From positions 62,001 through 126,000 of the forward strand of contig JAUIEP010000001.1 of assembly GCA_030428835.1 (NCBI GenBank): a stretch of DNA of 64,000 bases, written 5' to 3'. This document shows positions 807-33,841 of this stretch, one piece after another. Numbering within the stretch: position 1 is the first letter of the stretch; each line of letters starts with the position of its first letter. The notes under the pieces were generated by a model. The model was not told the DNA's origin and did not search any database. It saw nothing but the letters and a program-made list of their open reading frames with translations. Made by a program: the position numbers and the translations under genes. This DNA is from Gammaproteobacteria bacterium. GTDB lineage: Bacteria; Pseudomonadota; Gammaproteobacteria; Pseudomonadales; Halieaceae.

Positions 807-823
807 TGACATACTTTCTGCCA
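807..823. promoter_or_regulatory. Operator-like palindrome 1 (TGACA-N7-TGCCA)
   Basis: TGACATACTTTCTGCCA, 53 bp upstream of the hydratase/dehydrogenase GTG. It is one of seven sites in this window that fit TGRCA-N7-TGYCA. The left half forms a TTGACA that could be a -35 element, so a bound regulator would block it. Confidence 0.7.
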
Positions 824-875
824 ATAAAGTTCCGGTCTTAATCCCACCCCGGCATTCGAATTGGAGAGAACTGGC

Positions 876-2918
876 GTGATTGCATTGACGGACAAGGTCA
901 CCTACAGCGTGGAGGACGGCGTCGCCGTGCTCACAGTCGATAACCCCCCGGTAAACGCCCTCAGCCAGGGCGTGCGCCAGGGTATCAAGGACGGGGTGGA
1001 GCGCGCCCTGGAGGACCCCGCCGTGGCGGCCGTCCTGCTGCACTGCGCGGGGCGCACATTCATCGCCGGCGCGGACATCACCGAGTTCGCCTCTGTCCCG
1101 CAGGGCCCCGATTTTCACGCGGTACTCGCGGTGATGGAAAATGCGCGCAAGCCGATTGTTGCCGCTATCCACGGTACGGCGCTGGGCGGCGGCCTGGAAA
1201 CCGCGCTGTGTTGCCACTACCGCGTGGCCGTGGAGGATGCCCGCTTCGGCCTGCCCGAGGTGAACCTCGGGTTGTTACCGGGTGCGGGCGGGACGCAGCG
1301 CCTGCCGCGCCTGGTCGGGGTGGAGAAGGCCGTTGACATGGTCGTGTCCGGCAATCCGATCCGGGCTGCTGAGGCGCTTGAGTTGGGGCTCATCGACGCG
1401 CTTGTCACCGGCGACCTGCGCGCCCAGGCACTGGCGTTTGCGAGGGATGCGGCGGCGCGCGGCGAGTTGCCGCGCGTACGCGACAGGCAGGACAAGCTCG
1501 CCGTGGAGCCCGGCTACTTCGACCAGGTGCGCGCGGCGATCGCGCGCAAGACCCGGGGCTTCCTCGCGCCCGAACTGAACATTCAGTGCATCGAGGCCGC
1601 GGTGAGCCAACCTTTCGACGAGGGCCTCGCCACGGAAGCGAAACTGTTCCGGCAGGCACTTGCGAGTCCCGAGTCCGCGGCGCAGCAATACTTCTTTTTC
1701 GCGGAGCGCCAGGCCGCCAAGGTGCCGGGGCTGCCGAAGGATACACCGGAGCGGCCGATCAACAGGGTCGGCATCATCGGGGCGGGAACCATGGGTGGCG
1801 GTATCGCCATGAATATGGCCAACGCCGGTATTCCCGTTACCGTCGTGGAGATGAGCGACGCGGCGCTGCAGCGGGGCCTGGGCGTCGTGCGCAAGAACTA
1901 CGAAAACACCGCGCGCAAGGGCCGCATCTCCGAGGGGGATGTCCAGGCGCGGATGGATCTGTTCACCGGCTCACTGGATCTTGCAGACCTTGCCGACTGC
2001 GACCTGGTCATCGAGGCGGTGTTCGAGAACATGGCCGTGAAAAAAGAGATTTTTACGAAGCTCGACGCCATCGCGGCGCCGAACGCCATCCTCGCCTCCA
2101 ATACCTCGGCACTCAACCTTAACGAGATCGCCGCGGTCACCACGCGCCCCGAGTCGGTTATCGGGCTGCACTTCTTCTCGCCGGCCAACGTGATGAAACT
2201 GCTCGAGGTGGTGCGCGGCGATAAGACCGCGCCGGACGTGATACAGACCTGTATGCGCTTCGCCAAGCGGATTGGGAAAGTCCCTGTGCTGGTCGGTGTC
2301 TGCCATGGCTTCGTCGGCAACCGCATCCTGTTCCAGCGCCAGGCGCTGGAGGGCGCCACACCCGCGCACATCGACGAAGTGCTGTACGAGTTCGGACTCC
2401 CCATGGGGCCGTTCCAGATGAGCGACCTCGCGGGGCTGGACATCGGCTGGAGCAAGGAGACCTCGACCGGGTCGACGGTCAGTGAGCGCCTCTGTGAGCT
2501 GGGGCGCTTCGGCCAGAAATCGGGTGCGGGCTACTATGACTACGACGAGCAGCGCAACCGCACCCCCGCGGCCGTCGCCGTGGAATTGTTCGAGGAGTTT
2601 GCCGCGAAGCAGGGCATAACGCGCCGGGAGATAGGCGATGAAGAAATCCTGGACCGCCTGTTGCTGCCGATGATCAACGAGGGCGCGAGGATTCTCGAGG
2701 AGGGCATCGCGAGTCGCGCCAGCGATATCGATGTGGTGTATGTCTACGGCTACGGCTGGCCGGTGTACCGCGGCGGCCCCATGCACTACGCCAACAGCCT
2801 GGGCCTCGCGGAGGTGCGGGCGCGGCTGGAGCGCTATCGGGGCAAGACCGGCGATGCGGCGTTTGAGCCGGCTGCCCTTCTCGTGGAGCTGGCGGAGAAG
2901 GGCGGCAGCTTCACCTGA
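876..2918 (+). CDS. Enoyl-CoA hydratase / 3-hydroxyacyl-CoA dehydrogenase fusion (FadB/FadJ-like)
   Basis: Bifunctional beta-oxidation enzyme of 680 residues, cytoplasmic. Residues 1-190 are a crotonase fold with the oxyanion loop IAGADITEF and both catalytic-glutamate contexts (GGGLETAL, LPEVNLGLLPGAGG). Around residue 295 the NAD-binding motif GIIGAGTMGGGIA starts the 3-hydroxyacyl-CoA dehydrogenase, with the catalytic His in GLHFFSP, and two C-terminal dehydrogenase domains follow. The arrangement resembles the peroxisomal bifunctional enzyme and FadJ. No thiolase gene is adjacent. The track starts at TTG 861, but GGAGAG at 863-868 lies seven bases before GTG 876, which I take as the start. 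It probably acts on a specific acyl-CoA of the local pathway, since it shares the window's operator motif. Confidence 0.93.
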   Translation: MIALTDKVTYSVEDGVAVLTVDNPPVNALSQGVRQGIKDGVERALEDPAVAAVLLHCAGRTFIAGADITEFASVPQGPDFHAVLAVMENARKPIVAAIHGTALGGGLETALCCHYRVAVEDARFGLPEVNLGLLPGAGGTQRLPRLVGVEKAVDMVVSGNPIRAAEALELGLIDALVTGDLRAQALAFARDAAARGELPRVRDRQDKLAVEPGYFDQVRAAIARKTRGFLAPELNIQCIEAAVSQPFDEGLATEAKLFRQALASPESAAQQYFFFAERQAAKVPGLPKDTPERPINRVGIIGAGTMGGGIAMNMANAGIPVTVVEMSDAALQRGLGVVRKNYENTARKGRISEGDVQARMDLFTGSLDLADLADCDLVIEAVFENMAVKKEIFTKLDAIAAPNAILASNTSALNLNEIAAVTTRPESVIGLHFFSPANVMKLLEVVRGDKTAPDVIQTCMRFAKRIGKVPVLVGVCHGFVGNRILFQRQALEGATPAHIDEVLYEFGLPMGPFQMSDLAGLDIGWSKETSTGSTVSERLCELGRFGQKSGAGYYDYDEQRNRTPAAVAVELFEEFAAKQGITRREIGDEEILDRLLLPMINEGARILEEGIASRASDIDVVYVYGYGWPVYRGGPMHYANSLGLAEVRARLERYRGKTGDAAFEPAALLVELAEKGGSFT

Positions 2919-3050
2919 GTTGCGCGCGAGTTACCCGCCGCGGGGCAATGCCGCCCGTATCCCCTGCCAGGGGTGTTCGTTCAGCGGTCGGCGCCTCCGC
3001 GCTGCAGGCATCACGCCGTGACCACTGCCCACTGGCATTTCCATTTCATT

Positions 3051-3067
3051 TGGCATAAATTGTGCCA
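3051..3067. promoter_or_regulatory. Operator-like palindrome 2 (TGGCA-N7-TGCCA)
   Basis: TGGCATAAATTGTGCCA, perfect half-sites, 87 bp upstream of the nitronate monooxygenase-like gene. Same 17-bp layout as the other six sites. Confidence 0.7.
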
Positions 3068-3153
3068 CTTCAAATTTACCGCTCCGGGTCGAGCGCTTCC
3101 CCAATCCGGCGTGCGCACCCGCGCACGGACTTTTGCAAACAGGAATCCTATCT

Positions 3154-4125
3154 ATGAAAACCCGACTGACTGAACTGCTCGGCATCGAGCACCCGATCAT
3201 TTGTGGCGGCATGATGCGCGTCGGCACGCCCGAGCTGGCCGCGGCCGCGTCCAATGCCGGCGCCCTGGGTGTGATGACTGCACTGACCTCGGGCAGTCCG
3301 GAGCAGCTCGAGAAGGATATTGCCCTGGCCCAGTCGCTGACCGACAAGCCGTTTGCCGTGAACCTCACGGTGGGAGTCGTCGCCACACCGATCAACTACG
3401 ACGATCTCGTCGATGTCATCGTAAAAAGCGGCGTGAAGATCGTCGAGACCGCGGGCCGCAGCCCCGAGCCCTTCATGGAGATCTTCAACGCGCACGGCGT
3501 CAAGGTCATCCACAAGTGCGTCGCCGTGCGCCACGCGCTGAAGGCGGAGAAGCTCGGCGTTGCGGCGGTGAGCATCGACGGCTTTGAATGCGCCGGCCAC
3601 CCGGGCGAGGAAGATGTCCCGGGCCTTATCCTGATCCCGGCCGCGGCGAACCGCCTGTCCATCCCCATCGTCGCCTCGGGCGGTATCGCCGACGGTCGCG
3701 GACTCGCTGCCGCGCTGGCGCTGGGCGCCGACGGCATCAACATGGGTACGCGCTTCATGGTGACCAAGGAGGCGCCTATCCACGAGGGTATCAAGCAGAA
3801 GATCGTAGAGATGGACGAAACGCAGACGCGACTGATCTTCCGCAGCTTTCGCAACACGGCGCGGGTCTACAAGAACGGCATCGCGGACAAGGTCGCCGAA
3901 ATCGAGGCGCAGGGCGGCGAGTTCGGCGATGTGCACGAGATGGTGTCCGGCAAGAACCAGGAGAAGGCCTGGTCCACCGGCGACATCGAGGCGGGTATGG
4001 TCACGGTGGGTATGTGCGGCGGCCTGATCAACGACATCCCCACCTGCGAGGAACTGGTGAACAACATCATGTCCGACGCCGAGGCGATCATCAAACAGCG
4101 GCTCGGGGGGATGGTCGCCGCCTGA
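3154..4125 (+). CDS. Nitronate monooxygenase-family flavoprotein
   Basis: FMN-dependent TIM-barrel enzyme of 323 residues in the NMO / 2-nitropropane dioxygenase family, which also covers FabK-like enoyl reductases. Visible hallmarks are HPIICGGMMRV near the N-terminus, the GFECAGHPGE segment with the family's conserved His, and the phosphate-binding IVASGGIADGRG plus GADGINMGTRF. Such proteins sit in many acyl-CoA catabolic clusters without a defined substrate, so the family is firm and the reaction open. ATG 3154 follows AGGA by nine bases; the track start at TTG 3133 is less likely. A paralogue lies at 34932-35876 in the second block. Confidence 0.88.
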   Translation: MKTRLTELLGIEHPIICGGMMRVGTPELAAAASNAGALGVMTALTSGSPEQLEKDIALAQSLTDKPFAVNLTVGVVATPINYDDLVDVIVKSGVKIVETAGRSPEPFMEIFNAHGVKVIHKCVAVRHALKAEKLGVAAVSIDGFECAGHPGEEDVPGLILIPAAANRLSIPIVASGGIADGRGLAAALALGADGINMGTRFMVTKEAPIHEGIKQKIVEMDETQTRLIFRSFRNTARVYKNGIADKVAEIEAQGGEFGDVHEMVSGKNQEKAWSTGDIEAGMVTVGMCGGLINDIPTCEELVNNIMSDAEAIIKQRLGGMVAA

Positions 4126-4132
4126 CCCTGTA

Positions 4133-5347: not shown

Positions 5348-5397
5348 GCAGGACTCCAGTTGGCCGCGGTGTCGCCCCGGCAGGATTCAGGTGAGAT

Positions 5398-6153
5398 ATG
5401 AATATACGGCAGATAGCACTCGTCGCAAGCGACCTGGCGGCAACACAGGACGGGCTGTTCAAATTGTTGGGACTTGAGCGGGGATTTCACGACCCGCTGG
5501 TGGGGCAGTTCGGCCTGCACAACGTGGTGATGCGCCTCGGGGATACCTACCTCGAGGTCGTGGCGCCCAACGAGGCGGGCACCACGGCGGGGCGCTTCCT
5601 GGAGCGCCGTGGCGGCGACAGCGGCTACATGGTGCTCGTCCAGGTCGATGACCTGCAACGGGAGCGCGCGCGGGTGGCGGAGGCGGGCATCCGCATCGTG
5701 TGGGAGGTCCATACCGACACGGCGAGCGGCGTGCACCTGCACCCGAAGGATGTACCGGGCGCCATCGCGTCACTCGACGCCATGGCGCCGCCGCGGCAAT
5801 GGTTCTGGGCAGGGGAGGCCGGGGGCGATGACCTGCCGCGCGCCCGCAACGTGGGCGCCATCGTCGCGGCCGAGATCCAGAGTGCGGAGCCCGCGGCCAC
5901 GGCGGACTGCTGGTCTCGGGCCTACGGGGTGCCCCTGGCGGGCGACGCAGCGGCTCCGGATCTCCAGTTCGACGACACCGTCCTGCGTTTCCGGATGTCG
6001 CGTGACGGGCGCGGGCCGGGACTCGCCGGGATAGACATCAGCGTTCGTGATCTTCCCGCCATTCGCGCGGCGGCGGCGACACTGGGGCTGTCGCTGAACG
6101 GCAACGCGCTGGTGTATTGCGGTACGCGCTTTAACTTTGTTGCACCGCCTTGA
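5398..6153 (+). CDS. VOC-fold (glyoxalase-like) protein
   Basis: 251 residues with the vicinal-oxygen-chelate start MNIRQIALVASDLAATQD, followed by VQVDDLQRERARV and a second, weaker repeat from about residue 150. It resembles the Glyoxalase_3-like group of ring-cleavage and isomerase relatives rather than a classical glyoxalase I. Metal ligands cannot be assigned by eye. CAGGTGAGAT precedes ATG 5398. Its last 23 bases overlap the 3' end of the convergent enoyl-CoA hydratase gene. Confidence 0.8.
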   Translation: MNIRQIALVASDLAATQDGLFKLLGLERGFHDPLVGQFGLHNVVMRLGDTYLEVVAPNEAGTTAGRFLERRGGDSGYMVLVQVDDLQRERARVAEAGIRIVWEVHTDTASGVHLHPKDVPGAIASLDAMAPPRQWFWAGEAGGDDLPRARNVGAIVAAEIQSAEPAATADCWSRAYGVPLAGDAAAPDLQFDDTVLRFRMSRDGRGPGLAGIDISVRDLPAIRAAAATLGLSLNGNALVYCGTRFNFVAPP

Positions 6154-6829
6154 GCGACTTCTGAAGTTCGTCGCGCATGGTGGCCAGCGTCGCGGCGCGC
6201 GCGGAGAGTTTGTTGTTGGCGTAGTGGGCAGTGGGTAACTGCGCCAGGCCCTCGGCAATCTCCCGCGCTCGTGGCAACACCTGTTCCGGCGCCACCACCT
6301 CGTCGAGGAAGCCTGCCGCAACCGCGAGTTCCGGCCCGAATATCTCGGCCTGGATGGCGGCGCGCGTCGCATAGGCGGGTGCGAGGCGCGCCATCGTCAG
6401 GGCAACGAGCGGTGTCGGTATGTCCATGTTGATGCGGGTTTCGGGCAGGCTCCACTGGAACGCACCCTGCGCCCCGACGCGGTTGTCGCACGCCAGCAGC
6501 AGGAAGGCGCCCATGGCGATACCGTGGCCGGTGCAGGCCGCCACGACCGGCATCGGGTAGCTGTACAGGCGGATTGCGAGTTCGATGCCCTTGAGCACCA
6601 TGCCGATGCCTTCCTCCGCGCTGCGCTGGAAGATCTTCAGGTCAAAGCCCGCGGAGAACATGCCCTCGCGTCCGCACAGCAGCACCGCGCCCGCGCCGTC
6701 GGCCTCGGCCCTGTCGAGACAGTCGTTCATGGTGTCGCTGAAGGTGGGGCTGACCACGTTCGCCTTGCCGTCGTCGAAGCGGATGAGCGCAACCCTGTCC
6801 TGCAGCGTGTAGTCCATCGTGTCACTCAT
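6131..6829 (-). CDS. Enoyl-CoA hydratase/isomerase family protein
   Basis: Crotonase-fold protein of 232 residues. The oxyanion-hole segment is MFSAGFDLKIFQ, and LPETRINMDIP keeps one catalytic-type Glu. At the other catalytic position the sequence reads GHGIAMGAFLL, without the usual Glu, so it may be an isomerase or another crotonase variant rather than a classical hydratase. The ATG at 6829 is preceded by AAGGGTGACAAG; the longer ORF in the track has no RBS and would overlap the divergent TetR gene. It starts 95 bp from the TetR gene with palindrome 3 between them. Confidence 0.87.
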   Translation of the reverse strand: MSDTMDYTLQDRVALIRFDDGKANVVSPTFSDTMNDCLDRAEADGAGAVLLCGREGMFSAGFDLKIFQRSAEEGIGMVLKGIELAIRLYSYPMPVVAACTGHGIAMGAFLLLACDNRVGAQGAFQWSLPETRINMDIPTPLVALTMARLAPAYATRAAIQAEIFGPELAVAAGFLDEVVAPEQVLPRAREIAEGLAQLPTAHYANNKLSARAATLATMRDELQKSLKAVQQS

Positions 6830-6864
6830 CTTGTCACCCTTTACGCGGCTGGCTTGCAAACATA

Positions 6865-6881
6865 TGGCACATATGGTGTCA
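6865..6881. promoter_or_regulatory. Operator-like palindrome 3 between hydratase and TetR gene
   Basis: TGGCACATATGGTGTCA in the 95-bp divergent intergenic region, 43 bp upstream of the TetR start and 35 bp upstream of the hydratase start. The placement fits autoregulation of the TetR gene plus control of the hydratase. Confidence 0.75.
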
Positions 6882-6924
6882 TTAAAAATCACAGCGAGCA
6901 AGCGCTCCAGAACGCGGTGCATGC

Positions 6925-7512
6925 ATGACACAGACGACAGAACCTGTCTCCGACGGCCGCAGGCAGCGCAGCGAACGCAGCCGCCGTGCCATCACGGAGG
7001 CCCTGCTCAGCCTGATCGCAGAGGGGGTGCTTGTGCCGACCGCGCAACAGGTCTCGGAGCGCGCCGGGGTGGGTATCCGCTCGGTGTTCCGGCATTTCTC
7101 CGACATGGAGAGCCTGTTCGTCACCGCGGACGAACTCAACCGCGCGAAGTACCAGAACCTGTTTGCGGGCGGCGACCGCAACGGGCCGCTCGACAAGCGC
7201 ATCGAACACGCCGTGGAACAACACGCGGTTGCCTACGAAGCGGCGGGGCATGTATTTCTTTCCACCACGTCGCAGCTGTGGCGCTACGAGATCCTGCAGG
7301 AGCAGTATGCCCGCGCGCAGCGCCAGATCCGCAGAGACCTCGAGGACTGGCTGCCAGAGTTGAAGGACCTGCCGGCCGACCGCCGTGAAATGGTCGACAT
7401 GCTGGCTTCATTCGAATGCTGGCACCGCCTGCGCGAGACCCAGGGCCAGAGTCGCAAGACCAGCATTCGGCTCGTTACCGACATGCTGCGCCGGGTCATC
7501 GCGGGCGACTAG
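6925..7512 (+). CDS. TetR family transcriptional regulator
   Basis: 195 residues. The N-terminal helix-turn-helix covers roughly residues 18-65 (RRAITEALLSL, TAQQVSERAGVGIRSVFRHF), which is the TetR signature; the C-terminal ligand domain is unassigned. Divergent from the enoyl-CoA hydratase, with an operator-like palindrome between. It is the only local-type repressor in the catabolic region, so it is my candidate for the protein that reads all seven TGRCA-N7-TGYCA sites. The ligand would be an acyl-CoA or the substrate itself (inference). Start ATG 6925; an out-of-frame ATG at 6921 is ignored. The next two genes may be cotranscribed. Confidence 0.92.
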   Translation: MTQTTEPVSDGRRQRSERSRRAITEALLSLIAEGVLVPTAQQVSERAGVGIRSVFRHFSDMESLFVTADELNRAKYQNLFAGGDRNGPLDKRIEHAVEQHAVAYEAAGHVFLSTTSQLWRYEILQEQYARAQRQIRRDLEDWLPELKDLPADRREMVDMLASFECWHRLRETQGQSRKTSIRLVTDMLRRVIAGD

Positions 7513-7960: not shown

Positions 7961-9340
7961 ATGAGCGAGCAATTCAAGGACCAGGGAGGCGCGGCAACCT
8001 CCAACCCCAGTCGGTTGCTGCGCTGGCTGACGTCCCGATTCATGACTCACCTGAGCCAACGCAGCGTCGTGGAGAAACGACGCGCCAAGGCGGAGCGACT
8101 GCGCCGGAAAAACGACGCGCCACATGTTGTCGAGTATTTCCACCAGGTGGAGGACGGCTACAGCCATCTCGCGATCCAGATGCTGGAGCCGTTGTGCCGG
8201 CGCTATGACATCCGGCTCGTGTGTCACCTTGTCAGCGGTCCCCGGGGGGCCAACTCCCCGGAGCCCGACCTGTTGCTGCGACTGTCGCGCTACGACGCCG
8301 GCCTGGTCGCACCCGAGTACGGCCTAGATTTCCCCGGCGGGAATGACGCTCCCGACGAGACCTGTCGCGAACAGGCTGCGCGGATTCTCGCCGCGCTGGA
8401 CGACGAGGCGTTTGTCGCGCATGGCGCCGGGGTCAGCACCGCGCTCTGGCGCGGCGACAGGCAGGCGCTGGCCGCGCTGGAGAAGGATCTCGGCAGCGCC
8501 GACGCTGCCGGGGCGGCCGCGCGTCTCGCAGCGGGGGACGCGCGCCTTGCACAGCTCAAACACTATTCCGGCGCGATGTTCTTCTATGGCGGCGAATGGT
8601 ACTGGGGGGTCGACCGGCTGTATCACCTCGAGGCGCGGCTGGGTGACGTCGGCGCGCTGCAGCAATCCGGTCGCGACCCGCTTGTGCCCAGGCCTCCCAT
8701 CGAGGCCGGGCCGTTGCGCGACAACGGGCGCCTGACGCTGGAAGTCTATCCCTCCCTGCGCAGTCCCTATACGGCGATCAGCTTCGACCGGGCGGTAAAA
8801 CTCGCGCAGGACACCGGGGTGAACCTGGTGGTGCGCCCTGTACTGCCCATGGTCATGCGCGGCGTTCCCGCCACGCGGCAGAAAGGTATATACATCTTCA
8901 CCGATACCGCCCGCGAGGCGCGCTACGCCGGCGTGCCCTACGGCAACTTCTACGACCCCATCGGCGCGCCCGTTCGCCGTGCCTACGCCCTCTACCCGTG
9001 GGCCTGCGAGCAGGGCAAGGGGAACGCGTTGATCAGCGCCTTCCTCAACTGCGCCTTCGCGCGCGGCGTCAACGCCGGGACCGACAAGGGCCTGCGCGAG
9101 GTCGTCGAAAGCGCCGGGCTGGACTGGGATGAAGCCCGGCAGCACCTCAAGGATACGGACTGGGAGCCCCTGCTGGAGGAGAACCGCCTGGCGATGTACA
9201 AGCATGGCCTGTGGGGCGTGCCGAGCTTTCGCCTGGCGGACGAGAATGGCCAGACGCGGCTGGCACTGTGGGGCCAGGACAGGCTGTGGCTGATCTCGCG
9301 GCATATCCAGCGCTTGCTCGCGCACCGGGCGGCGGCCTGA
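7961..9340 (+). CDS. Double DsbA-like / 2-hydroxychromene-2-carboxylate isomerase-like protein
   Basis: 459 residues with two thioredoxin-fold DsbA-like halves. The first spans about residues 50-200 (VVEYFHQVEDGYSHLAIQM). The second runs from about 245 to the end and opens LTLEVYPSLRSPYTAISFDR, the SPY pattern of HCCA isomerases and kappa-class GSTs. No CXXC is seen, which argues against a disulfide oxidoreductase. The family catalyses glutathione-dependent isomerisation in ring degradation; the substrate here is unknown. The gene starts seven bases after the membrane-protein stop. The N-terminal 45 residues are basic and of uncertain role. Confidence 0.8.
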   Translation: MSEQFKDQGGAATSNPSRLLRWLTSRFMTHLSQRSVVEKRRAKAERLRRKNDAPHVVEYFHQVEDGYSHLAIQMLEPLCRRYDIRLVCHLVSGPRGANSPEPDLLLRLSRYDAGLVAPEYGLDFPGGNDAPDETCREQAARILAALDDEAFVAHGAGVSTALWRGDRQALAALEKDLGSADAAGAAARLAAGDARLAQLKHYSGAMFFYGGEWYWGVDRLYHLEARLGDVGALQQSGRDPLVPRPPIEAGPLRDNGRLTLEVYPSLRSPYTAISFDRAVKLAQDTGVNLVVRPVLPMVMRGVPATRQKGIYIFTDTAREARYAGVPYGNFYDPIGAPVRRAYALYPWACEQGKGNALISAFLNCAFARGVNAGTDKGLREVVESAGLDWDEARQHLKDTDWEPLLEENRLAMYKHGLWGVPSFRLADENGQTRLALWGQDRLWLISRHIQRLLAHRAAA

Positions 9341-9376: not shown

Positions 9377-9393
9377 TGGCATATAGTCTGCCA
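9377..9393. promoter_or_regulatory. Operator-like palindrome 4 (TGGCA-N7-TGCCA)
   Basis: TGGCATATAGTCTGCCA, perfect half-sites, 160 bp upstream of the first acyl-CoA dehydrogenase in the 212-bp gap after the DsbA-like gene. Confidence 0.7.
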
Positions 9394-9552: not shown

Positions 9553-10731
9553 ATGGATACACGACTGAGCGACGAAGACCTGGCTTTCCGCGACGAGGTC
9601 CGAGCCTTTTTCGCGGAGGCCTTCGACGAGGACATTGCCGCAAAGGTGAGCAATACGGCCACCATGAAAGAGGGCATGATCGAGTGGCAACACCGCCTCA
9701 ACGCAAAGGGCTGGATGGCCCCCAACTGGCCTGTTGAACACGGCGGGACGGGGTGGAGCGTCACCCAGTCCTTCATCTTCCAGTCCGAGCGCGCGATGTC
9801 GGGTGCGCCGGATGTCATTCCCTTCGGTGTCGTGATGGTCGCGCCCGTCATCTACACCTACGGCACGCAGGAGCAGAAGGAGCGTTTCCTGCCGCGCATC
9901 CTGAACAGCGAGGACTGGTGGTGCCAGGGTTATTCCGAGCCGGGCGCCGGCTCCGACCTCGCGTCGCTAAAGACGAAGGCGGAGCTCGACGGCGATCACT
10001 ACGTCATCAACGGCAGCAAGATCTGGACGACCTACGCCCAGTACGCCGACTGGATCTTCTGCCTCGTGCGCACCGACAACTCCGGCAAGAAACAGGAGGG
10101 CATCACGTTCCTGCTCATCGACATGAAGTCGCCGGGTATCACCGTGCGTCCGATCGAGACCATCGACGGCTTCCATCACCTGAACGAGGTGTTTTTCGAT
10201 AACGTGCGCGTGCCCGTCGAAAACCGTATCGGTGAAGAGGGCAAGGGCTGGACCTATGCGAAGTCGCTGCTGGTGCACGAGCGCCTGTCCATTGCCGAGG
10301 TCGCAGACTCCAAGCGCGCGCTGGCGGAGCTGCGCGAGTTTGCCCGCCGTGAGGTGAACGGGGGCGCGAGCCTGCTCGACGACCCGCATTTCGCGCAGCG
10401 TCTTGGCGATGTCGAGATCGACCTGATGGCGCTCGAGTACACCGAGTTGCGGACTCTCGCCGACGTTGCGGAGGGCAAGCACCCCGGGCCGGAGTCGTCG
10501 CTGCTCAAGCTGCAGGGCACGGAAATCCAGCAGGCGTTACAGGAACTGCGGATGGATGTTGCCGGCTACTACAGCCAGGCGCTGCAGGGAGACCTGTCCG
10601 ACGATGACTACGGGCATGATTTCGCCAGCATCGCACAGAAGCTCTACTTCCGCGGGCGTGCCTCGTCGATTTACGGGGGCTCCAACGAAGTCCAGAAAAA
10701 CATCACGTCCAAGTTCGTTTTGGGCCTGTAG
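9553..10731 (+). CDS. Acyl-CoA dehydrogenase, subunit 1
   Basis: 392-residue FAD-dependent acyl-CoA dehydrogenase. It has the flavin-contact stretch WWCQGYSEPGAGSDLASL, the mid-domain KIWTTYAQYADW, and near the C-terminus SSIYGGSNEVQKNI. At the position of the catalytic Glu of medium-chain enzymes (YEG) it reads YGG, so the base is elsewhere or comes from the partner. GAGGAG precedes ATG 9553. The partner gene follows after 10 bp. Such tandem pairs form alpha2beta2 enzymes in actinobacterial steroid side-chain degradation (FadE28/FadE29 type); the analogy is inferred from pairing and length. Confidence 0.93.
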   Translation: MDTRLSDEDLAFRDEVRAFFAEAFDEDIAAKVSNTATMKEGMIEWQHRLNAKGWMAPNWPVEHGGTGWSVTQSFIFQSERAMSGAPDVIPFGVVMVAPVIYTYGTQEQKERFLPRILNSEDWWCQGYSEPGAGSDLASLKTKAELDGDHYVINGSKIWTTYAQYADWIFCLVRTDNSGKKQEGITFLLIDMKSPGITVRPIETIDGFHHLNEVFFDNVRVPVENRIGEEGKGWTYAKSLLVHERLSIAEVADSKRALAELREFARREVNGGASLLDDPHFAQRLGDVEIDLMALEYTELRTLADVAEGKHPGPESSLLKLQGTEIQQALQELRMDVAGYYSQALQGDLSDDDYGHDFASIAQKLYFRGRASSIYGGSNEVQKNITSKFVLGL

Positions 10732-10741
10732 GAGGTAAGCC

Positions 10742-11911
10742 ATGAACTTTAACCTGAGTGAAGAACAGGCCCTGATTCGCGACAGCATCGCGCGCTTCGT
10801 GCAGGACAACTACGCGTTCGACAAGCGCAACGCGTACGTCGCCATGGAGCACGGTTTCAGCCCGGACAACTGGCAGCAGATGGCCGAACTCGGCTGGCTC
10901 TCCATTCCGTTTGCCGAGGAGTACGGTGGTTTTGGCGGCGGCCCCGTGGACGCCATGGTCATCATGCAGGAATTCGGCAAGGGCCTCGTGGCGGAGCCCT
11001 ACCTGCCTACCGTACTGCTGTTTGGCGCTCTCCTGCAAAAAGGTGCAGAGGCGGAAATCGCGGGCGAACTTATCCCGCGGGTCATCGCCGGGGAGCTGCA
11101 GGGAGCCGTTGCGTATGTCGAGCGGCAGAGCCGCTACGCCCTCAACGATGTGGCGACCCGTGCCACCCGCGACGGTGACGGCTGGAGCATCAGCGGCGAG
11201 AAGACCGTGGTGCTGAACGGCGGCGTGGCACACAAGCTGGTGGTCGCGGCGCGCACCGCGGGCGAGCAGGCCGACGAGTCAGGCATCTCGCTGTTCCTGG
11301 TGGACGCGCAGGCGCCGGGTCTCTCCCGCAGCGTGTACCGCATGACCGACGGCATGGAGACCGCCAACATCCGCTTCGACGGCGTGGCCGCGCAGGCGCT
11401 TATCGGCGGTGAGGGCGCTGGCCTTTCGTTGCTGCAGGAGGTCATCGACCAGGCCATCCTGGCGGTCTCCGCGAACGCCCTGGGCGCGATGGAGTTCCTC
11501 AATGCCACCACGGTCGAATACTGCAAGACCCGCGAGCAGTTCGGCGTGGCGATCGGCAGTTTCCAGGCGCTGCAGCACCGCATGGTGGATACCTTCGCGG
11601 CCTGCGAGAACACCCGTTCGCTGTTGTATCGCGCCGTGTGTGCCTTCGACGCGGGGGACGAGGACGCGCAGCGCAGCCTGCACGCCCTCAAGGTCATGGT
11701 CGGCAAGGCCGGCCGGCACATCGGCGGCGAAGCCATCCAGCTACACGGCGGCATGGGCATGACCAACGAGTTGCCGGTGGGCTACTACGTAAAGCGCCTC
11801 ATGCTGATCAATACCCTGTTCGGCGATGCGGACTACCATCGCGCGCGGTTCCAGGCACTGGTCAATACGAAGCCGCAGACGGTCGCCAGCGCGAAATCCG
11901 CCGCGGCCTGA
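10742..11911 (+). CDS. Acyl-CoA dehydrogenase, subunit 2
   Basis: 389 residues, same superfamily as the preceding gene but divergent. The N-terminal helical domain is MNFNLSEEQALIRDSIARFV, the substrate region includes NALGAMEF, and the C-terminal domain carries QLHGGMGMTNELPVGYYVKR. The YEG-type catalytic Glu is not present at the usual end position (LFGDADYH). AGGAGG precedes the ATG, and the 10-bp spacing indicates cotranscription and probably a heteromeric complex. A strong terminator follows. Confidence 0.92.
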   Translation: MNFNLSEEQALIRDSIARFVQDNYAFDKRNAYVAMEHGFSPDNWQQMAELGWLSIPFAEEYGGFGGGPVDAMVIMQEFGKGLVAEPYLPTVLLFGALLQKGAEAEIAGELIPRVIAGELQGAVAYVERQSRYALNDVATRATRDGDGWSISGEKTVVLNGGVAHKLVVAARTAGEQADESGISLFLVDAQAPGLSRSVYRMTDGMETANIRFDGVAAQALIGGEGAGLSLLQEVIDQAILAVSANALGAMEFLNATTVEYCKTREQFGVAIGSFQALQHRMVDTFAACENTRSLLYRAVCAFDAGDEDAQRSLHALKVMVGKAGRHIGGEAIQLHGGMGMTNELPVGYYVKRLMLINTLFGDADYHRARFQALVNTKPQTVASAKSAAA

Positions 11912-13076: not shown

Positions 13077-14165
13077 TCAGACCATCGTGGCATTGCCGCG
13101 AAAGGGGGGATCGAGGCCGACGTTGACGTCGGTCTCAGGCAGGTCCGAGCGCCAGAGGGGTTCCCAGCAACCGTGCCGCTCGAGCAGGGCGCGGGCGTCC
13201 TCTTTCGCGGGCTCGGGCAGCGCCTCGAATTCCTCGCGCAGGCGGGCGAGGCACCACACGCGGTACGGTGAAATCCGGGCGCCGGGGTAGGTGACGCCTC
13301 CCGCGGTGAGATCGGCGCGCTGCCTGCCGGCGCGCACCGCCTCGGCGAGTTCGCAGAGGTAGGGCAGGTAGGTCGCCCCGATGTCCCTGAGCAGGGGGCC
13401 CCAGTCGTCGGGAATGCCGCTGACCCAGTCGCCGCGGGTACCCTGCGGCCCGGCGGCCCAGGTGCGTGCCACCCATTCCCAGACGCGGGGTGCGGTCGTG
13501 CGCATGATCTCGGCCGGGACGGGGTCCTGGGAGAAGTGACGGAACATCGGCCCCATGAACGCCACGTCCGCCAGGCTGGGACTGTTGCCCAACAGGTACG
13601 GCCGCTCCTCCAGCATGGCGGACAGCCACGCAAGGTTGTCGTGATACGCCTGTTCAACCTGTTTGCAGTTGGCTTTGGTCACGCCGTCGCCGGTGACAAA
13701 GCCGCCGAGCTGGCGCCGCCGTATCATTGCGCGCTTGAGCGGGGCGGGCAGCGGCATCTCCGCCATCAGCTCGGCCGCCAGGTGCCAGCCCAGCGCGGCG
13801 CGCCCCTCCGGGTACCACCAGCGGTAGTGCATGGCGGGGCGCCACAGCCACTCATCGGCGTAGTCCTCCATCAGCAGCGAGAAAAAGCGCTGCAGGGGAT
13901 CCGCGGGAATCACGGGCGGCGCGGGTTGTTGCGCTTCGAGCCAGGCAATCAGCGGCGTGGTGTCGGTCACCCAGCGCCCGTCCGCGAGCGTGCAGGCCGG
14001 CATCTGTTGTACGCCCGTCTCCTTGCGTATGCGGTTCCACACCCGCGGCGACACCATCGGCTCGAAGGTATAGTCCATGCCCTTGAGGCGCAGATACATT
14101 TCCAGCTTGCCGGTAAAGTACGACACATCGGAGCCGTACACGACCATGGGGAAGATTGCGCTCAT
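13077..14165 (-). CDS. Glutathione S-transferase-like protein (long form)
   Basis: 362 residues. The N-terminal thioredoxin-fold GST domain begins FPMVVYGSDVSYFTGKLEMYLRL and includes the QQMPACTLADGRWVTDTTPLIAWL stretch (cis-Pro and substrate-binding segment). An all-helical C-terminal part runs from about residue 95, with MHYRWWYPEG and YLLGNSPSLADVAFMG. It is longer than ordinary GSTs (about 210 residues) and shares this extended architecture with the protein at 33877-34917. The SDR gene ends 36 bp upstream on the same strand. Whether glutathione is used is unknown. Confidence 0.85.
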   Translation of the reverse strand: MSAIFPMVVYGSDVSYFTGKLEMYLRLKGMDYTFEPMVSPRVWNRIRKETGVQQMPACTLADGRWVTDTTPLIAWLEAQQPAPPVIPADPLQRFFSLLMEDYADEWLWRPAMHYRWWYPEGRAALGWHLAAELMAEMPLPAPLKRAMIRRRQLGGFVTGDGVTKANCKQVEQAYHDNLAWLSAMLEERPYLLGNSPSLADVAFMGPMFRHFSQDPVPAEIMRTTAPRVWEWVARTWAAGPQGTRGDWVSGIPDDWGPLLRDIGATYLPYLCELAEAVRAGRQRADLTAGGVTYPGARISPYRVWCLARLREEFEALPEPAKEDARALLERHGCWEPLWRSDLPETDVNVGLDPPFRGNATMV

Positions 14166-14201
14166 CGCCGGCTCCCGGGTGCGTTCGCGGTCGTTGCGAC
14201 C

Positions 14202-14978
14202 CTAGTCCACCCCGGTAATGCGCCGGAGCATCTTGTTCATGCCGCCGATCCAGCGGTCGTAGTCGCCGGCCTTGCGCGCCATGTAGGTTTTGACTTCCTC
14301 GTGGGTGAGGATGAGGAACGCGTCGCGCGCCAGGTGCTCTACCACGATATCGGCCAGCACATCGGGTTCCATCATCCCGTCGGTGGAGGCCGCTTGTGTT
14401 GCGTTGGTGTTGTTGTCCGTCATCGCGGTGCGCACGGCCTGCGGGCACAGCACAGACACGTTGATGCCCTGGTGTCGGTAGGTCATCGCTATCCACTCCG
14501 CGAATCCCACGGCGGCGTGCTTCGTGGTGCCATAGGCCGCGCCGCCGAGCTGGTTCAGGAGTCCCGCGGCGGACGCAGTATTCATGAGGTGGCCGCCGCC
14601 ACGCGCAATCATGCGCGGAATCATGTGGCGCGCGGCGTACACGTGGGACATCACGTTTACGTCCCAGCAGAATTGCCACTCGTCATTCGGTGACTGCTCG
14701 CTTTCACCCGCGCCGACGCCGGCGTTGCTGCAGAACAGGTCGATGGGGCCGACCTGTGACTCCGTGTCCTCGATAACGCGCAGTACGTCCTCCTCTTTCG
14801 CCACGTCAGCGGTCATGGGGATGCAGCCCAGTTCATCGGCCGTTTGCTGCGCGGTTGCGGCATTGAGGTCTACACCGACGATGGCCTTCGTGCCCTCCGC
14901 ATTGAAGCGCCTGACCAGCGCCTTGCCGATGCCGCTCCCCGCACCGGTAATTACGACGATCTTGTCCTGCAACTGCAT
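14202..14978 (-). CDS. Short-chain dehydrogenase/reductase
   Basis: 258-residue classical SDR. The nucleotide motif is TGAGSGIG at residues 12-19, the CSNAGVG segment is present, and the YGTTK catalytic Tyr-Lys lies near residue 155. GGAG precedes ATG 14978 by about nine bases. It probably oxidises or reduces a hydroxyl/keto group of the pathway substrate. It is the first gene of a three-gene minus-strand unit and divergent from the DUF1330 gene across a region with palindrome 5. Confidence 0.92.
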   Translation of the reverse strand: MQLQDKIVVITGAGSGIGKALVRRFNAEGTKAIVGVDLNAATAQQTADELGCIPMTADVAKEEDVLRVIEDTESQVGPIDLFCSNAGVGAGESEQSPNDEWQFCWDVNVMSHVYAARHMIPRMIARGGGHLMNTASAAGLLNQLGGAAYGTTKHAAVGFAEWIAMTYRHQGINVSVLCPQAVRTAMTDNNTNATQAASTDGMMEPDVLADIVVEHLARDAFLILTHEEVKTYMARKAGDYDRWIGGMNKMLRRITGVD

Positions 14979-15006: not shown

Positions 15007-15035
15007 TTGACATAATAACTGCCATTACCTATAAA
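15007..15035 (+). promoter_or_regulatory. Sigma-70 promoter overlapping operator 5
   Basis: TTGACA at 15007-15012, a 17-bp spacer, then TATAAA at 15030-15035, 33 bp before the DUF1330 GTG. The palindrome at 15008-15024 covers most of the -35 box and the spacer, which is the classical layout for repression. Confidence 0.8.
15008..15024. promoter_or_regulatory. Operator-like palindrome 5 (TGACA-N7-TGCCA)
   Basis: TGACATAATAACTGCCA between the divergent SDR and DUF1330 genes, overlapping the -35 element of a good promoter. Confidence 0.78.
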
Positions 15036-15067: not shown

Positions 15068-15487
15068 GTGGAAGTGAAAAACGCGCTCGAACCCAACGAG
15101 CAACAGGTGGCCGGATTCAGCGATCCCGATGACAGTAAAGCCATCTACATGGTCAACCTGCTGAAGTACCGCGACAGGGCTGAATACCCCGATGGGCGCG
15201 ACAGCGAGCTGAGCGGCCGGGACGCCTACGCGCGCTACGCCGCGGCGGTCGGGGATTGCCTGGCGGCGGTCGGCGGGAGTTTCGTTTTCGCCGGCACCGT
15301 GCGCCGCCTGCTGCTGGGAGAAGTCGAAGAGTTGTGGGACGACGTCGCGATCGCAATGTACCCGAGTCGCGCCGCGATGCTGGAGATGATCATGAGTCCC
15401 ACCTACCAGGCCATCGCGGAGCACCGCGCTGCCGGGCTGGAGGGGCAGCTCAATATCGAGACCGTGGACAGCGCACTGGGCGCCTAG
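15068..15487 (+). CDS. DUF1330-family protein
   Basis: 139 residues. IYMVNLLKYRDRAEYPDG followed by GRDAYARYAAAVGDCLAAVGG and AIAMYPSRAAMLEMIMSPTYQ is the DUF1330 pattern, a ferredoxin-like dimeric alpha/beta-barrel fold with no assigned reaction. The start is GTG 15068 with GGAGAG ten bases upstream. Its stop overlaps the convergent next gene by four bases, and it is divergent from the SDR operon. Confidence 0.88.
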   Translation: MEVKNALEPNEQQVAGFSDPDDSKAIYMVNLLKYRDRAEYPDGRDSELSGRDAYARYAAAVGDCLAAVGGSFVFAGTVRRLLLGEVEELWDDVAIAMYPSRAAMLEMIMSPTYQAIAEHRAAGLEGQLNIETVDSALGA

Positions 15488-16119
15488 CCGGCCGGTTTGC
15501 GTGGTATGAACGCCTCCAGCAGGCCGTACAGCGCCAGCAGCAACAGTCCCAACAATCCGCGCGGGTCACCGAGATTGAGCTGCGTTTCCACGGGGTAGGC
15601 GATGGTCTTGGTCAGCGCCGCCACCTTGAATGCGTGGCTGTCCCGCATCTCCGGTCTCGCGACGATTTCCATGAAGGTGCGGCGACTGCGGTAGCGCATC
15701 ATTCCGCCCATGTCCCAGTTGTCCGCGTTGTCGATACCGACGACATCCATGGCGGGGAATACCGCGGTGCCGAGTATCACGGGATGACTGGCGCGGCGGA
15801 GCAGGTTGGGGAACATGTAAGCCATGTAGCGACCCATGAGCTGCTGTGCCGTCTCACCGGGTTGCGCGCCCTCGACGTCGGGCGGGTTATCGTTGTAGTC
15901 CACCGCGTTAAGCATGAAGAACTGCCGGCCGGAATCCTCGCGCATGAATCGCTCAAGCTTCGCGATGAACTCCGGCTGGTGATCCTCGCGAGCCCTGATC
16001 GGGTCGAGGAATGCCGAGATTTCCTCCTCGGACAGTGGGCCCCCGAAGTCCGTGTACCACCCCACAAACAGGGCGTAGAGAAGGGCGATGGGCAGCAGGA
16101 TACCGGGTCTGGGACGCAT
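15484..16119 (-). CDS. Membrane-anchored DUF1330-fold-like protein
   Basis: 211 residues. An N-terminal hydrophobic helix (ILLPIALLYALFVGWY) and a C-terminal one (LLGLLLLALYGLLEAF) flank a soluble middle. The middle reads QFFMLNAVDYNDNPP, YMAYMFPNLLRRASHPVILGTAV and MMRYRSRRTFMEIVARPEM, the same order of elements as the DUF1330 protein next door. That resemblance is my inference from pattern, not a family hit. ATG 16119 has GGAGAG upstream; the longer ORF in the track would run through palindrome 6. Confidence 0.75.
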   Translation of the reverse strand: MRPRPGILLPIALLYALFVGWYTDFGGPLSEEEISAFLDPIRAREDHQPEFIAKLERFMREDSGRQFFMLNAVDYNDNPPDVEGAQPGETAQQLMGRYMAYMFPNLLRRASHPVILGTAVFPAMDVVGIDNADNWDMGGMMRYRSRRTFMEIVARPEMRDSHAFKVAALTKTIAYPVETQLNLGDPRGLLGLLLLALYGLLEAFIPRKPAG

Positions 16120-16168: not shown

Positions 16169-16185
16169 TGGCAAATGATTTGCCA
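16169..16185. promoter_or_regulatory. Operator-like palindrome 6 (TGGCA-N7-TGCCA)
   Basis: TGGCAAATGATTTGCCA, 50 bp upstream of ATG 16119 on the minus strand. It is nearly a complete palindrome (TTGGCAAATGATTTGCCA). It also fits a sigma-54 GG-N10-GC pattern, which several other sites do not. Confidence 0.68.
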
Positions 16186-28150: not shown

Positions 28151-28158
28151 GTGTGACC

Positions 28159-30083: not shown

Positions 30084-30100
30084 TCTGACCAAAATTCATT

Positions 30101-30157
30101 GTGTGGGTTGGTGTGTGGGTAGAGTAGACTATCTAATATAAAAATGTTATATATCAA
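30101..30157. promoter_or_regulatory. Arm-type repeats and AT box at the satellite right end
   Basis: GTGTGGGTTGGTGTGTGGGTAG at 30101-30122 and TTATATATCAA at 30147-30157, 75 and 19 bp before the right core. Same word family as the repeats before int. Confidence 0.7.
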
Positions 30158-30175
30158 GTATTTATAATCGTATTC

Positions 30176-30195
30176 TGGCGGAAGAGGTAGGAGTC
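30176..30195. other. Right attachment core inside selC
   Basis: TGGCGGAAGAGGTAGGAGTC, the complement of the selC 3' end including its CCA. Identical to 20107-20126. Confidence 0.92.
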
Positions 30196-30269
30196 AAACC
30201 CACCAGGCACCACGTCGGCGCCTCGCTGGTTTTGAAGACCAGGCACCCCACCGGGGATGTCGCTCTTCC
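30176..30269 (-). tRNA. selC: tRNA-Sec (anticodon UCA)
   Basis: On the minus strand the gene reads GGAAGAGCGACATCC ... ACTCCTACCTCTTCCGCCA, 94 nt with encoded CCA. The anticodon arm CTGGT-CTTCAAA-ACCAG carries TCA, and the long variable arm (GCGAGGCGCC-GACG-TGGTGCCTGG region) is typical for Sec. The acceptor GGAAGAG pairs with CTCTTCC. Integration of the satellite keeps the full tRNA. selB and selA lie immediately upstream on the same strand. Confidence 0.97.
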
Positions 30270-30282
30270 GGGGTAGTCGAGT

Positions 30283-32196
30283 TTAGCCGCCGTACAGGCG
30301 TTCGGGTAGCTCCGCGTCCAGCACCACGCGCTCATTGTCTCGACGCTGGGTAAATCTGATGTTGTCGAAGTACTCCAGTACTTCCACCGTCAGATTGCGC
30401 CCCGCGGACCATTCATTCTTCACGTTGATGACAGTCACCGCCTCACCGCGGGCGACAACGCGCAGGAGTCCCCGCGCGAGTTGCAGCAGGTGTACCGGGA
30501 GTGCACTGCGCCTGTCGGAGACTCGGTGGAGTTCGCCTGTCTTGACCTTCTCGCGGATAATTTTCTGCAGCCGGGACTGTTCCAGCCTCGTGCCCTGTAA
30601 CAGTTCCGAGAACAGCGGTATCTGCCTGCCGTGCGCATCCAGTGCCTGCCTGATCGTCTGCCAGGCCTTTTCATCCTGCGACGATACCCGCGGCCTGAAG
30701 TCGGTCTGTGCAACAAGGCCATCCCTCAGAGTGAAAGCGCCGCTGTAGATCATATCGCCAAGGACCGCGAGCAGCAGGTGTTGGGGTGTCGCCCTGCGCA
30801 GTGGTGCTGTCAATGTGGAAATCTTCAGGCCGGCTTCCTGATTGTGCTCGCGGTGATACGCCGTAACGCCGGCCTGCAGTGCGTCGCGCACCGCGCGCCA
30901 GCGCGTCTCGCTGACGAGCCAGCGCGTGTTGTCCCGCGTGTAGGCGCGCGCGCCGTCGGGACGCAGTGCGTCGGTCGCGGTGCCCGTGAGGTTGCAGGAA
31001 CCCGCGAAGCGCTCGACGTTTACCGGCTCATCCAGGGCGAGGCGGGCAGCCAGGGCCGCCGCGGGTGTTTCCGCCTGCATCGCCCGCACGTGCTCCACGT
31101 GCTTTTCCCGCGGGCGGCGCGGCATTGTGCCGCCCGGGTCCAGAACCTGTCCGCCACCCAGCAGTTCGCTGCCCGAGTCGTCGCGCAGCAGGAACCGCTC
31201 GCCGCGTGCGCAGGCGACCGGCTCGTCTGTCAGTAGCTGTCCGAGCAACTCATCGCCGGGTCCGATGCGCGTCGTCCCGAACAGTGCGAGTCGCGCGGCC
31301 ACGCGTCGAGCGCCTATGTGGAGCTTGACCGGCGCCATGTGCTTGAGCGGGAAGGGCGCGTGGGGGAGGAGGCCGCAGCTCACATCGAGGCGAGTGGACG
31401 GCGCCGCGGCATCGCTGCCAACGAGCCAGTCGCCGCGCGCCACATCGTCCAGCGCGACGTCGCCGGTAAGGTTCAGGGCGCAACGCTGGCCCGCAACCGC
31501 GAGTTCTGCCTCGCCGTCATGCACGCGCAGTGAGCGCACCCGCACCTCGCGGCCGGCGGGTTCGAGGCGCAGTGTCTCGCCCGTGGCGACAGCGCCAGCG
31601 GACACGGTACCGGTAACCACAAGGCCGCTACCCTTGAGGTGAAACGCGCGGTCTACTGCGAGTCGAAAACACTGTCCGTCGTGCGCATGGGATCGGTTGT
31701 CACACAACGCCAGCAGGTGGTTCTTCAACGCGTCCACGCCTTCGCCGGTCGCGTTGCTGAGCGGGAAAACGGGGGCATCCTCCCAGCCGCGTGCTCGGCA
31801 TAGCGCGGCCACGCTCTCCGTCGCGGCCTCCCTCTGCGCCTGCGTGGCGCGATCGATCTTGCTCAATGCGATCGTGAGCGCCGGCACACCGAGCAGACGG
31901 AGTACATCTAGATGCTCAATGGTCTGCGGCATCGGGCCGTCGTCCGCCGCGACCAGCAGCAGGCCGCGGTCGATGCCGCTCACGCCCGCGATCATGTTGT
32001 TGATGAAGCGGTGGTGTCCCGGCACGTCGATGAAGCCGATGGGCAGGCCGACAGCGCGCGGCAGGTAGGCGAAGCCGAGGTTGATGGACAGGCCGCGGCG
32101 CTTTTCCTCCTCCGTGCGGTCGGTGTCGACGCCAGTCAGGTGCGCGATGAGGGACGTCTTGCCGTGATCGACGTGGCCGGCGGTCGCGATGATCAC
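30283..32196 (-). CDS. selB: Selenocysteine-specific elongation factor SelB
   Basis: 637 residues. It delivers Sec-tRNA to UGA codons next to a SECIS element. The GTPase part shows [28 protein letters not shown] and the SKID form of the NKxD box. EF-Tu-like beta domains follow, then C-terminal winged helices for mRNA binding (from about residue 370). I use GTG 32196, which overlaps the selA stop (GTGA), instead of the longer track ORF, because the protein then begins [13 protein letters not shown] as in other SelB proteins. Confidence 0.97.
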
Positions 32197-33590
32197 CGGT
32201 TGAGCTGGCGGAACTGGTCCAGGAAGTGCTGTTCGTCGCCGCTGTCCAGGCAACGCAGGTCCAGCCAGAGGGCGCCGCGGTGCACGCGGCCGATGACCGG
32301 GCGGGGCAGGTCGCGCAGCCGCGCCGCCAGTGCGCCCACTGACTGCCCGCTGTCGCCTGACGGTCGCAGGCAGAGGGCGCTACTCGGCAGTGTTTCCACC
32401 GGCAGTGAGCCGCTGCCGATCTGGCTCTGGCAGTCCTCCACGCTCACGCTGCAGAACGCTCCGATCAGTTCCGCGACGGCGGGAGCGAGGCGCGCGGCCT
32501 GTGCGCTGATCTGCGCGGCATCGCGTGTCAGCAGGCGCAACGTGGGCAACTCCCGCAGCAGGCGTGCCGGGTTGCGGTACAGCTTGAGCACCTCCGCCAG
32601 GGCGGCGAGGGTGACCTTGTCAAGTCGCAACGCCCGTTTCAGCGGGTTCTGCCGCACAATGCGGACCAGGTCCGCGCGTCCCGCGATGATGCCGGCCTGG
32701 GGGCCGCCCAGCAGCTTGTCGCCGCTGAAGGTGACAAGGTCGGCGCCGCCGGCGATCGCCTCGGCGGCGGTGGGCTCGGGCGGCAAGCCAAGCGCGGCGA
32801 AGTCGACGAGGTTGCCGCTGCCGAGATCGGTGACAAACGGCAGCGCGTGCTCGTGCGCCAGCGCCGCGAGGTCGCCCTCCGGCACTGCCTTGGTAAAACC
32901 CTGCACCTCGTAGTTGCTCGTGTGCACCTTCATCAGCAGTGCCGTGTCGGGGCCGATGGCCCGGCGGTAGTCCTTGAGGTGCGTGCGGTTGGTCGCACCG
33001 ACTTCCACGAGCCTGCAACCGGAGCGCTCCATCACCTCGGGTATGCGGAACGAGCCGCCGATCTCCACCAGTTCGCCGCGGGAGACCGGCACCTCGCGGC
33101 CGAGTGCGAGGCTGTTCAACACGAGCAGCACCGCGGCGGCATTGTTGTTCACGACGGTGGCGGCTTCCGCGCCTGTCAACGCGCAGACCAGGTGCTCCAC
33201 GTGCGTCTCGCGTTCACCGCGCCCCCCTGTCTCCAGGTCGAACTCCAGGTTACTGGGATTCGCGGCGGCGATGGCCATGGCGTCGATGGCGCGGCGTGGC
33301 AAGAGCGCGCGCCCGAGGTTGGTGTGCAGCACGGTGCCGGTCAGGTTGTACAGCGGTTTGAGTGTCGGCGTGTCCGCGGCTTCCAGGTGCCGGTTGAGGT
33401 CGGCGCGAAGGGATTCGACGTCCACGGTGCCGCCCGCGGCAATCTCGCGCCGCAGTTCCGACAGGCGCTCGCGCAGCGCCTCGGTGACGGCTTCGCGGCC
33501 CCAGCGCTCTATCTCGCCCGGCAGTGCGCGCAGCACTTCGTCGATGGAGGGCAGTTGGCGGTAGGGGTTGTCGCGGGTGGTGTCTGTCAT
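32193..33590 (-). CDS. selA: L-seryl-tRNA(Sec) selenium transferase SelA
   Basis: 465 residues, close to the E. coli length. This PLP enzyme turns Ser-tRNA(Sec) into Sec-tRNA(Sec) with selenophosphate. It opens RQLPSIDEVLRALPGE; the core has LYNLTGTVLHTNLGRALLP, NNNAAAVLLVLN, the PLP lysine in TFSGDKLLGGPQAG, and GRVHRGALWLDLRCL near the end. ATG 33590 is chosen since the track extension reads through repeats; no clear Shine-Dalgarno is visible. Upstream, 33612-33645 holds three GGGTGAAG words in tandem. First gene of selA-selB-selC. Confidence 0.97.
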   Translation of the reverse strand: MTDTTRDNPYRQLPSIDEVLRALPGEIERWGREAVTEALRERLSELRREIAAGGTVDVESLRADLNRHLEAADTPTLKPLYNLTGTVLHTNLGRALLPRRAIDAMAIAAANPSNLEFDLETGGRGERETHVEHLVCALTGAEAATVVNNNAAAVLLVLNSLALGREVPVSRGELVEIGGSFRIPEVMERSGCRLVEVGATNRTHLKDYRRAIGPDTALLMKVHTSNYEVQGFTKAVPEGDLAALAHEHALPFVTDLGSGNLVDFAALGLPPEPTAAEAIAGGADLVTFSGDKLLGGPQAGIIAGRADLVRIVRQNPLKRALRLDKVTLAALAEVLKLYRNPARLLRELPTLRLLTRDAAQISAQAARLAPAVAELIGAFCSVSVEDCQSQIGSGSLPVETLPSSALCLRPSGDSGQSVGALAARLRDLPRPVIGRVHRGALWLDLRCLDSGDEQHFLDQFRQLNR

Positions 33591-33687
33591 TGGTCTGTAC
33601 GGGTTGGCCTGGGTGAAGAATGGGTGAAGTGTGGGTGAAGTGTAGCTGTAAATCTGTCTGGTTCTCGCTGCGTGCGCGCTGCGCGCC

Positions 33688-33707
33688 AGGTCGAATGAAT
33701 TCGACCC
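33688..33707. repeat. GGTCGAAT-family palindrome near selA
   Basis: AGGTCGAATGAATTCGACCC in the gap between selA and the GST-like gene. A degenerate copy, GTCGACCGAATTCGGCCCC, lies at 33755-33773. Confidence 0.85.
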
Positions 33708-33824
33708 CACAGGGGGCTGGGCGGTGTGCGCGCCGCTGCTCGTCGCCCCGAGCCGTCGACCGAATTCGGCCCCACACAAAGGGAAGCGCAGAACGGCCGA
33801 CGATCTGGTGAGAAGGTGACATAT

Positions 33825-33841
33825 TGGCATTAATCGTGTCA
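33825..33841. promoter_or_regulatory. Operator-like palindrome 7 (TGGCA-N7-TGTCA)
   Basis: TGGCATTAATCGTGTCA, 35 bp upstream of the GST-like gene's ATG, in an A/T-rich patch (GTGTCAATATAT) that probably includes the promoter. It links this block to the 0.8-16 kb region. Confidence 0.72.

Follow-up and report, generated by a model that had tools for sequence, protein, structure and literature searches.

An apparently undescribed TetR-family regulon marked by a palindromic operator in a Halieaceae bacterium and its relatives

Results

A TetR-family protein encoded at 6925–7512 of a 64-kb stretch of a Halieaceae genome (the window) is predicted to control catabolic genes through a single palindromic operator, TAWTGRCAYWNWNWRTGYCAWTA. 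We put the probability at about four in five that this palindrome is the operator of that protein, that a TetR dimer represses the window promoters until a ligand appears, and that a TetR paralog on another contig, C247, shares the operator. The regulon is real and apparently undescribed and its control is of an ordinary, known kind; no description of it was found in the searchable literature, which left out most subscription papers. The same TetR/operator switch appears to recur in dozens of related genomes. The sites, their spacer specificity, promoter positions, conservation and co-occurrence with TetR were established by computation; direct TetR binding, repression, a ligand and a substrate are inferred.

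The core palindrome, TGRCA-N7-TGYCA, matched seven times in the window against 0.25 expected, and none of 100 shuffles reached seven. A sequence-only reading of this DNA had listed seven 17-bp sites with an exact 7-bp spacer, each in a promoter region; all seven were recovered at the coordinates claimed, and flanks and open reading frames place every one upstream of a gene (Table 1). Allowing one mismatch gave 12 matches against 6.8 expected, barely over background. A matrix trained on relatives' sites only, with the window left out (training median 30.5 bits), lengthened the operator to a palindrome of about 23 bp. Scored with this matrix, six of the window sites reached 27.0–32.7 bits, inside the range of the training sites, and nothing else in the window reached 8 bits, where chance gives about 0.5 matches of at least 8 bits per window. 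That the seven sites form one operator thus stands for six of them; the site at 16169 has an inner A/T pair found in about 1% of sites, and poor flanks. We read it as a doubtful, weak or decayed site rather than an established member, because its score is at chance level and yet, of 12 orthologs of the adjoining DUF1330-like gene, 8 have an upstream site of at least 15 bits.

Table 1. Operator sites and genes of the two blocks in the window
Feature	Position	Strand	Remarks
Operator site (17-bp core)	807..823		32.7 bits; ~52 bp before likely GTG of FadB-like gene
FadB/FadJ-like enoyl-CoA hydratase / 3-hydroxyacyl-CoA dehydrogenase fusion	876..2918	+	Likely GTG start
Operator site	3051..3067		27.8 bits; upstream of NMO1
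NMO1: nitronate monooxygenase / FabK-like flavoenzyme	3154..4125	+	
ECH: crotonase-family hydratase	6131..6829	-	ATG 6829; divergent from tetR
Operator site	6865..6881		28.0 bits; ECH/tetR divergent promoter; putatively autoregulatory
TetR-family regulator, 195 aa	6925..7512	+	Proposed operator-binding protein
DsbA / 2-hydroxychromene-2-carboxylate isomerase-like protein	7961..9340	+	Downstream of tetR; adjoins tetR in many relatives
Operator site	9377..9393		27.0 bits; 159 bp before acyl-CoA dehydrogenase pair; covers candidate -10 TATAGT
Acyl-CoA dehydrogenase pair	9553..11911	+	PimC-like 9553-10731; PimD-like 10742-11911
SDR and GST1	13077..14978	-	SDR 14202-14978; GST1 13077-14165; likely operon
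Operator site	15008..15024		29.9 bits; between divergent SDR (14978) and DUF1330 (15068)
DUF1330 protein	15068..15487	+	
Membrane DUF1330-like protein	15484..16119	-	Likely ATG 16119
Weak match	16169..16185		6.7 bits; ~50 bp before likely ATG (16119) of DUF1330-like gene
Operator site	33825..33841		32.4 bits; 35 bp before GST2, in divergent selA/GST2 gap
Second block: GST2, NMO2, DUF2855	33877..36983	+	GST2 33877-34917; NMO2 within 34206-35876; DUF2855 35892-36983; likely operon

It had also been stated that no site stands in front of the sel genes. Position alone leaves this ambiguous, since the site at 33825 shares the selA/GST2 gap and lies some 240 bp from the likely selA start; the statement is favoured by relatives without sel neighbours, in which the site stays with GST2. 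In another genome (locus L080), selA and selB (61% and 41% identical) are likewise no more than 10 kb from a TetR ortholog and two operators, as in the window, an arrangement that may be coincidence.

The whole genome (5.23 Mb) was searched by patterns and the fetched stretches were then scored with the matrix. There were 26 core matches, against 9 for a reversed control, and seven of the 26 fall inside the window. Eight reach 20 bits or more: the six in the window, one on contig C23 (C23:27117, 27.4 bits) and one on C247 (C247:3946, 22.0 bits). By our own arithmetic, random placement would put six of eight strong sites in this 1.2% of the genome with a probability near 1e-10. Apart from a second C247 site of 14.7 bits, scoring the rest of contigs C133 and C247 gave no further site of at least 11 bits. 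The regulon extends past the window, and the strong sites, far from occurring at random density across the genome, are promoter-biased and kept in several orthologous promoters. A possible extra member is the FAD/NAD(P) oxidoreductase gene at the C23 site (L128:5001); its open reading frame is over-extended at the 5' end, and the site lies about 140 bp upstream of where the gene probably starts.

Members of the TetR family have an all-helical fold of nine or ten helices, are released from DNA by a ligand and bind a palindromic operator, commonly in their own promoter. The 6925 protein matches the TetR_N helix-turn-helix domain (PF00440) marginally, at 23.9 bits against a cut-off of 24, and a profile of its orthologs gave weak TetR matches among solved structures, mainly across the helix-turn-helix. 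Its AlphaFold model (pLDDT 89, ten helices) confidently predicts a TetR fold, and the top Foldseek matches of the model are TetR structures. Distant fold matches include DesT, KstR and FadR-type proteins, which would be compatible with an acyl-CoA inducer without being evidence for one. Structure and PDB searches on the regulon proteins identified no ligand or substrate.

TetR orthologs were present in 41 of the 97 genomes searched, its own included. A profile built from 28 of them led to 80 named loci in Halioglobus, Haliea, Parahaliea, Pseudohalioglobus, Seongchinamella, Luminiphilus, Porticoccaceae/SAR92, Zhongshania and others. The make-up of this set suggests that the window belongs to a marine, Halioglobus-like member of the Halieaceae. 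Sequence totalling 1.35 Mb around the 80 TetR genes holds 132 sites with the 7-bp spacer, whereas every other spacer from 0 to 20 gave between 1 and 21 and palindromes of permuted half-sites averaged 7; 115 of 139 sites, those of the window included, are intergenic. The site that had been noted 43 bp upstream of tetR is present, and 49 of the 80 orthologs have a counterpart of at least 12 bits in the 250 bp before the gene, against a background of 4.6%; the other 31 have none by this measure.

Operator and regulator also go together at the level of genomes, in statistics that ignore shared ancestry: within the family, the median number of core sites is 11.5 in TetR-positive against 4.5 in TetR-negative genomes (p = 7e-7; a control pattern was equal in both), the operator precedes 25 of 36 GST2 copies in TetR-positive against 1 of 10 in TetR-negative genomes (p = 0.001), and for NMO1 the counts are 16 of 26 against 0 of 3. 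In the family's other genera, at least one match to the 23-bp pattern (two mismatches or fewer) was found in 17 of 17 TetR-positive and 9 of 23 TetR-negative genomes. Core matches still slightly outnumber control matches in the TetR-negative genomes. The single one of these with a strong GST2 site (G005) was assembled into about 180 contigs, and incomplete assembly, not true absence, may explain why it shows no TetR. Spacer specificity, the site before tetR itself, genome co-occurrence and TetR-dependent conservation all support the proposal that the 6925 protein is the operator's regulator.

Four palindromes of unchanged spacing but altered third base (TATTGTCAY..RTGACAATA) surround a TetR homolog of 36% identity from another family (L252; G068, C1:1168000-1187999), as would be expected had protein and operator changed together; such a natural specificity change would be useful for contact mapping. 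Another genome, G066, has 36 core matches against 5 for the control and no TetR match, and many of these read TGACAG-N5-CTGTCA, perhaps the operator of another regulator.

Judged from ortholog promoters, membership of the regulon is partly labile. The operator is conserved before tetR, GST2, ECH, the DUF1330-like gene and NMO1, with a site of at least 12 bits within 250 bp upstream of 15 of 22 GST2, 8 of 12 DUF1330-like, 5 of 5 ECH and 5 of 12 NMO1 orthologs. It precedes about 11 of 29 SDR orthologs and 4 of 29 orthologs of the acyl-CoA dehydrogenase pair, all four in close genomes. The expectation that FadB-like ortholog promoters would keep the site was ruled out: it was found in 0 of 29 relatives, with one distant exception (L101). 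The earlier claim that the 6925 protein represses all seven promoters accordingly holds in part: the regulator link is supported, but the 16169 site is weak, the FadB site is not conserved and a paralog has its own site-bearing cluster.

The 15008 core site lies over the -35 hexamer and much the greater part of the spacer in TTGACA-N17-TATAAA, a promoter that matches 11 of 12 consensus bases and reads into the DUF1330 gene. Among relatives, operator and core promoter elements overlap in more than a single register, and a fixed -35/-10 register tested across all sites was not uniform; the motif itself supplies much of the -35 signal.

Discussion

Repression is the likely mode of TetR control, because the operator overlaps core promoter elements, where a bound dimer would exclude RNA polymerase. 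We propose that a TetR dimer occupies these elements at its own promoter, shared with the divergent ECH gene, and likewise at the promoters of the FadB-like gene, NMO1, the acyl-CoA dehydrogenase pair, SDR/DUF1330 and GST2/NMO2/DUF2855, keeping RNA polymerase out. A ligand would release the protein, plausible candidates being the substrate and an acyl-CoA derived from it, and the C247 paralog probably recognises this operator too, at another cluster. The six promoter regions named would then all be bound by one protein, and all be released by deleting its gene alone or together with that of the paralog.

The C247 paralog is 55% identical to the 6925 protein, and its cluster also encodes a WS/DGAT acyltransferase, an MBL-fold enzyme, an acyl-CoA dehydrogenase, an MFS transporter and a GST, the last with the cluster's second site (14.7 bits). 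One alternative is that the C247 protein, or both paralogs, mainly read the operator, which would make the 6925 protein one of two regulators. The two share a genome, the 22-bit site is 2.8 kb from the C247 gene and, given the conserved helix-turn-helix, a near-identical recognition region is expected; the paralog could be the true regulator for some window promoters. We consider this improbable as a general account, as a lone TetR copy is the rule among relatives, which hold many sites nonetheless, and the C247 copy has no site of at least 11 bits in front of it whereas the 6925 copy has one 43 bp upstream.

Less probable still is that an unrelated regulator reads the palindrome and tetR is simply one of its targets. 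TetR binding is a prediction from sequence, some TetR orthologs have no upstream site and some TetR-negative genomes hold several core matches, all of which such a regulator would accommodate; however, it would leave the dependence of the GST2 site on the presence of TetR, the co-occurrence of TetR and operator across genomes and the variant operators around the diverged homolog to be explained, and we regard it as very unlikely. Clustering of a short palindrome, by chance or through composition, may describe the roughly 18 of 26 genome-wide core matches that fall below 20 bits and look like background, and 16169 by its own score, but for the six strong sites it is refuted by conservation across genomes, together with the window excess, spacer specificity, matrix scores, co-occurrence and the GST2 contrast, and its probability as an overall account is negligible.

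The control by TetR that we propose resembles that by KstR of Mycobacterium, an autoregulated TetR repressor whose single palindrome precedes many scattered lipid and CoA-catabolic genes, in many cases lying between divergently transcribed genes and across core promoter elements (PMC1995591). KstR is, however, actinobacterial, its operator is TnnAACnnGTTnnA rather than TGRCA-N7-TGYCA, its regulon of 74–83 genes is much larger (PMC1995591), and sequence and fold searches gave no close sequence relation between it and the 6925 protein. BkaR, also of Mycobacterium, likewise governs a small autoregulated regulon with local and distant targets through a 24-bp palindrome with a conserved 16-bp core, but this operator reads GTTA(N)T(N4)A(N)TAAC, the targets are branched-chain keto-acid genes (PMC3920632) and the lineage is another. 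Operator and sequence rule out membership of either regulon. With the acyl-CoA-responsive regulators of the DesT/FadR type (PDB 3lsj, 3anp, 5gpc) the overall fold is shared, and DesT appeared in both sequence and fold searches; the match to the 6925 protein is weak (TM ~0.6, 20% identity), and their targets are other ones.

In the window the regulon comprises FadB-like and ECH hydratases, an NMO/FabK flavoenzyme, PimC/PimD-like acyl-CoA dehydrogenases, an SDR, GSTs, a DsbA/HCCA-isomerase-like protein, DUF1330 and DUF2855. In relatives (L046-L125) the operator stands before genes of an MBL-fold family in 23 cases and before S1 sulfatase genes in 13 and 3 (clusters c2, c3 and c6), and also before TonB receptors and a DJ-1 family; the best solved relative of the MBL-fold family, 8gyg, is labelled an arylsulfatase. 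The sequence-only reading had no sulfatase behind the operator, which is true inside the window but not of the relatives, where it repeatedly precedes sulfatase genes. The window's own sulfatases, at most about 29% identical to these, were ruled out as hidden members. The sulfatase-linked operators hint at a sulfate ester as substrate, and a sulfated, bulky and lipophilic one is a lead only.

A tentative reading, which we hold to be possible rather than probable, is that the regulon serves an undescribed route by which marine Halieaceae, Porticoccaceae and Spongiibacteraceae break down a sulfated, bulky, lipophilic and perhaps algal compound. After uptake through TonB receptors, enzymes of two unrelated classes would remove the sulfate, and glutathione-dependent reactions and CoA-dependent breakdown of a chain would complete the route. 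The genes would be dispersed along the chromosome, acquired or lost one promoter at a time, and joined by the operator. The matrix allows the genes of an uncharacterised pathway to be gathered genome by genome in coastal and open-ocean bacteria, and the operator links genes of unknown function, such as DUF1330 and DUF2855, that could not otherwise be linked.

In a structure search, the closest solved relative of the first acyl-CoA dehydrogenase was 4x28, a two-subunit steroid side-chain enzyme of M. tuberculosis. At 36980-38062 on the minus strand lies a luciferase-like oxidoreductase gene, with no operator seen upstream of its orthologs; its 3' end abuts the GST2/NMO2/DUF2855 block, and its product, in a gammaproteobacterium, passes the NCBIfam cut-off of the F420_Rv3520c subfamily.
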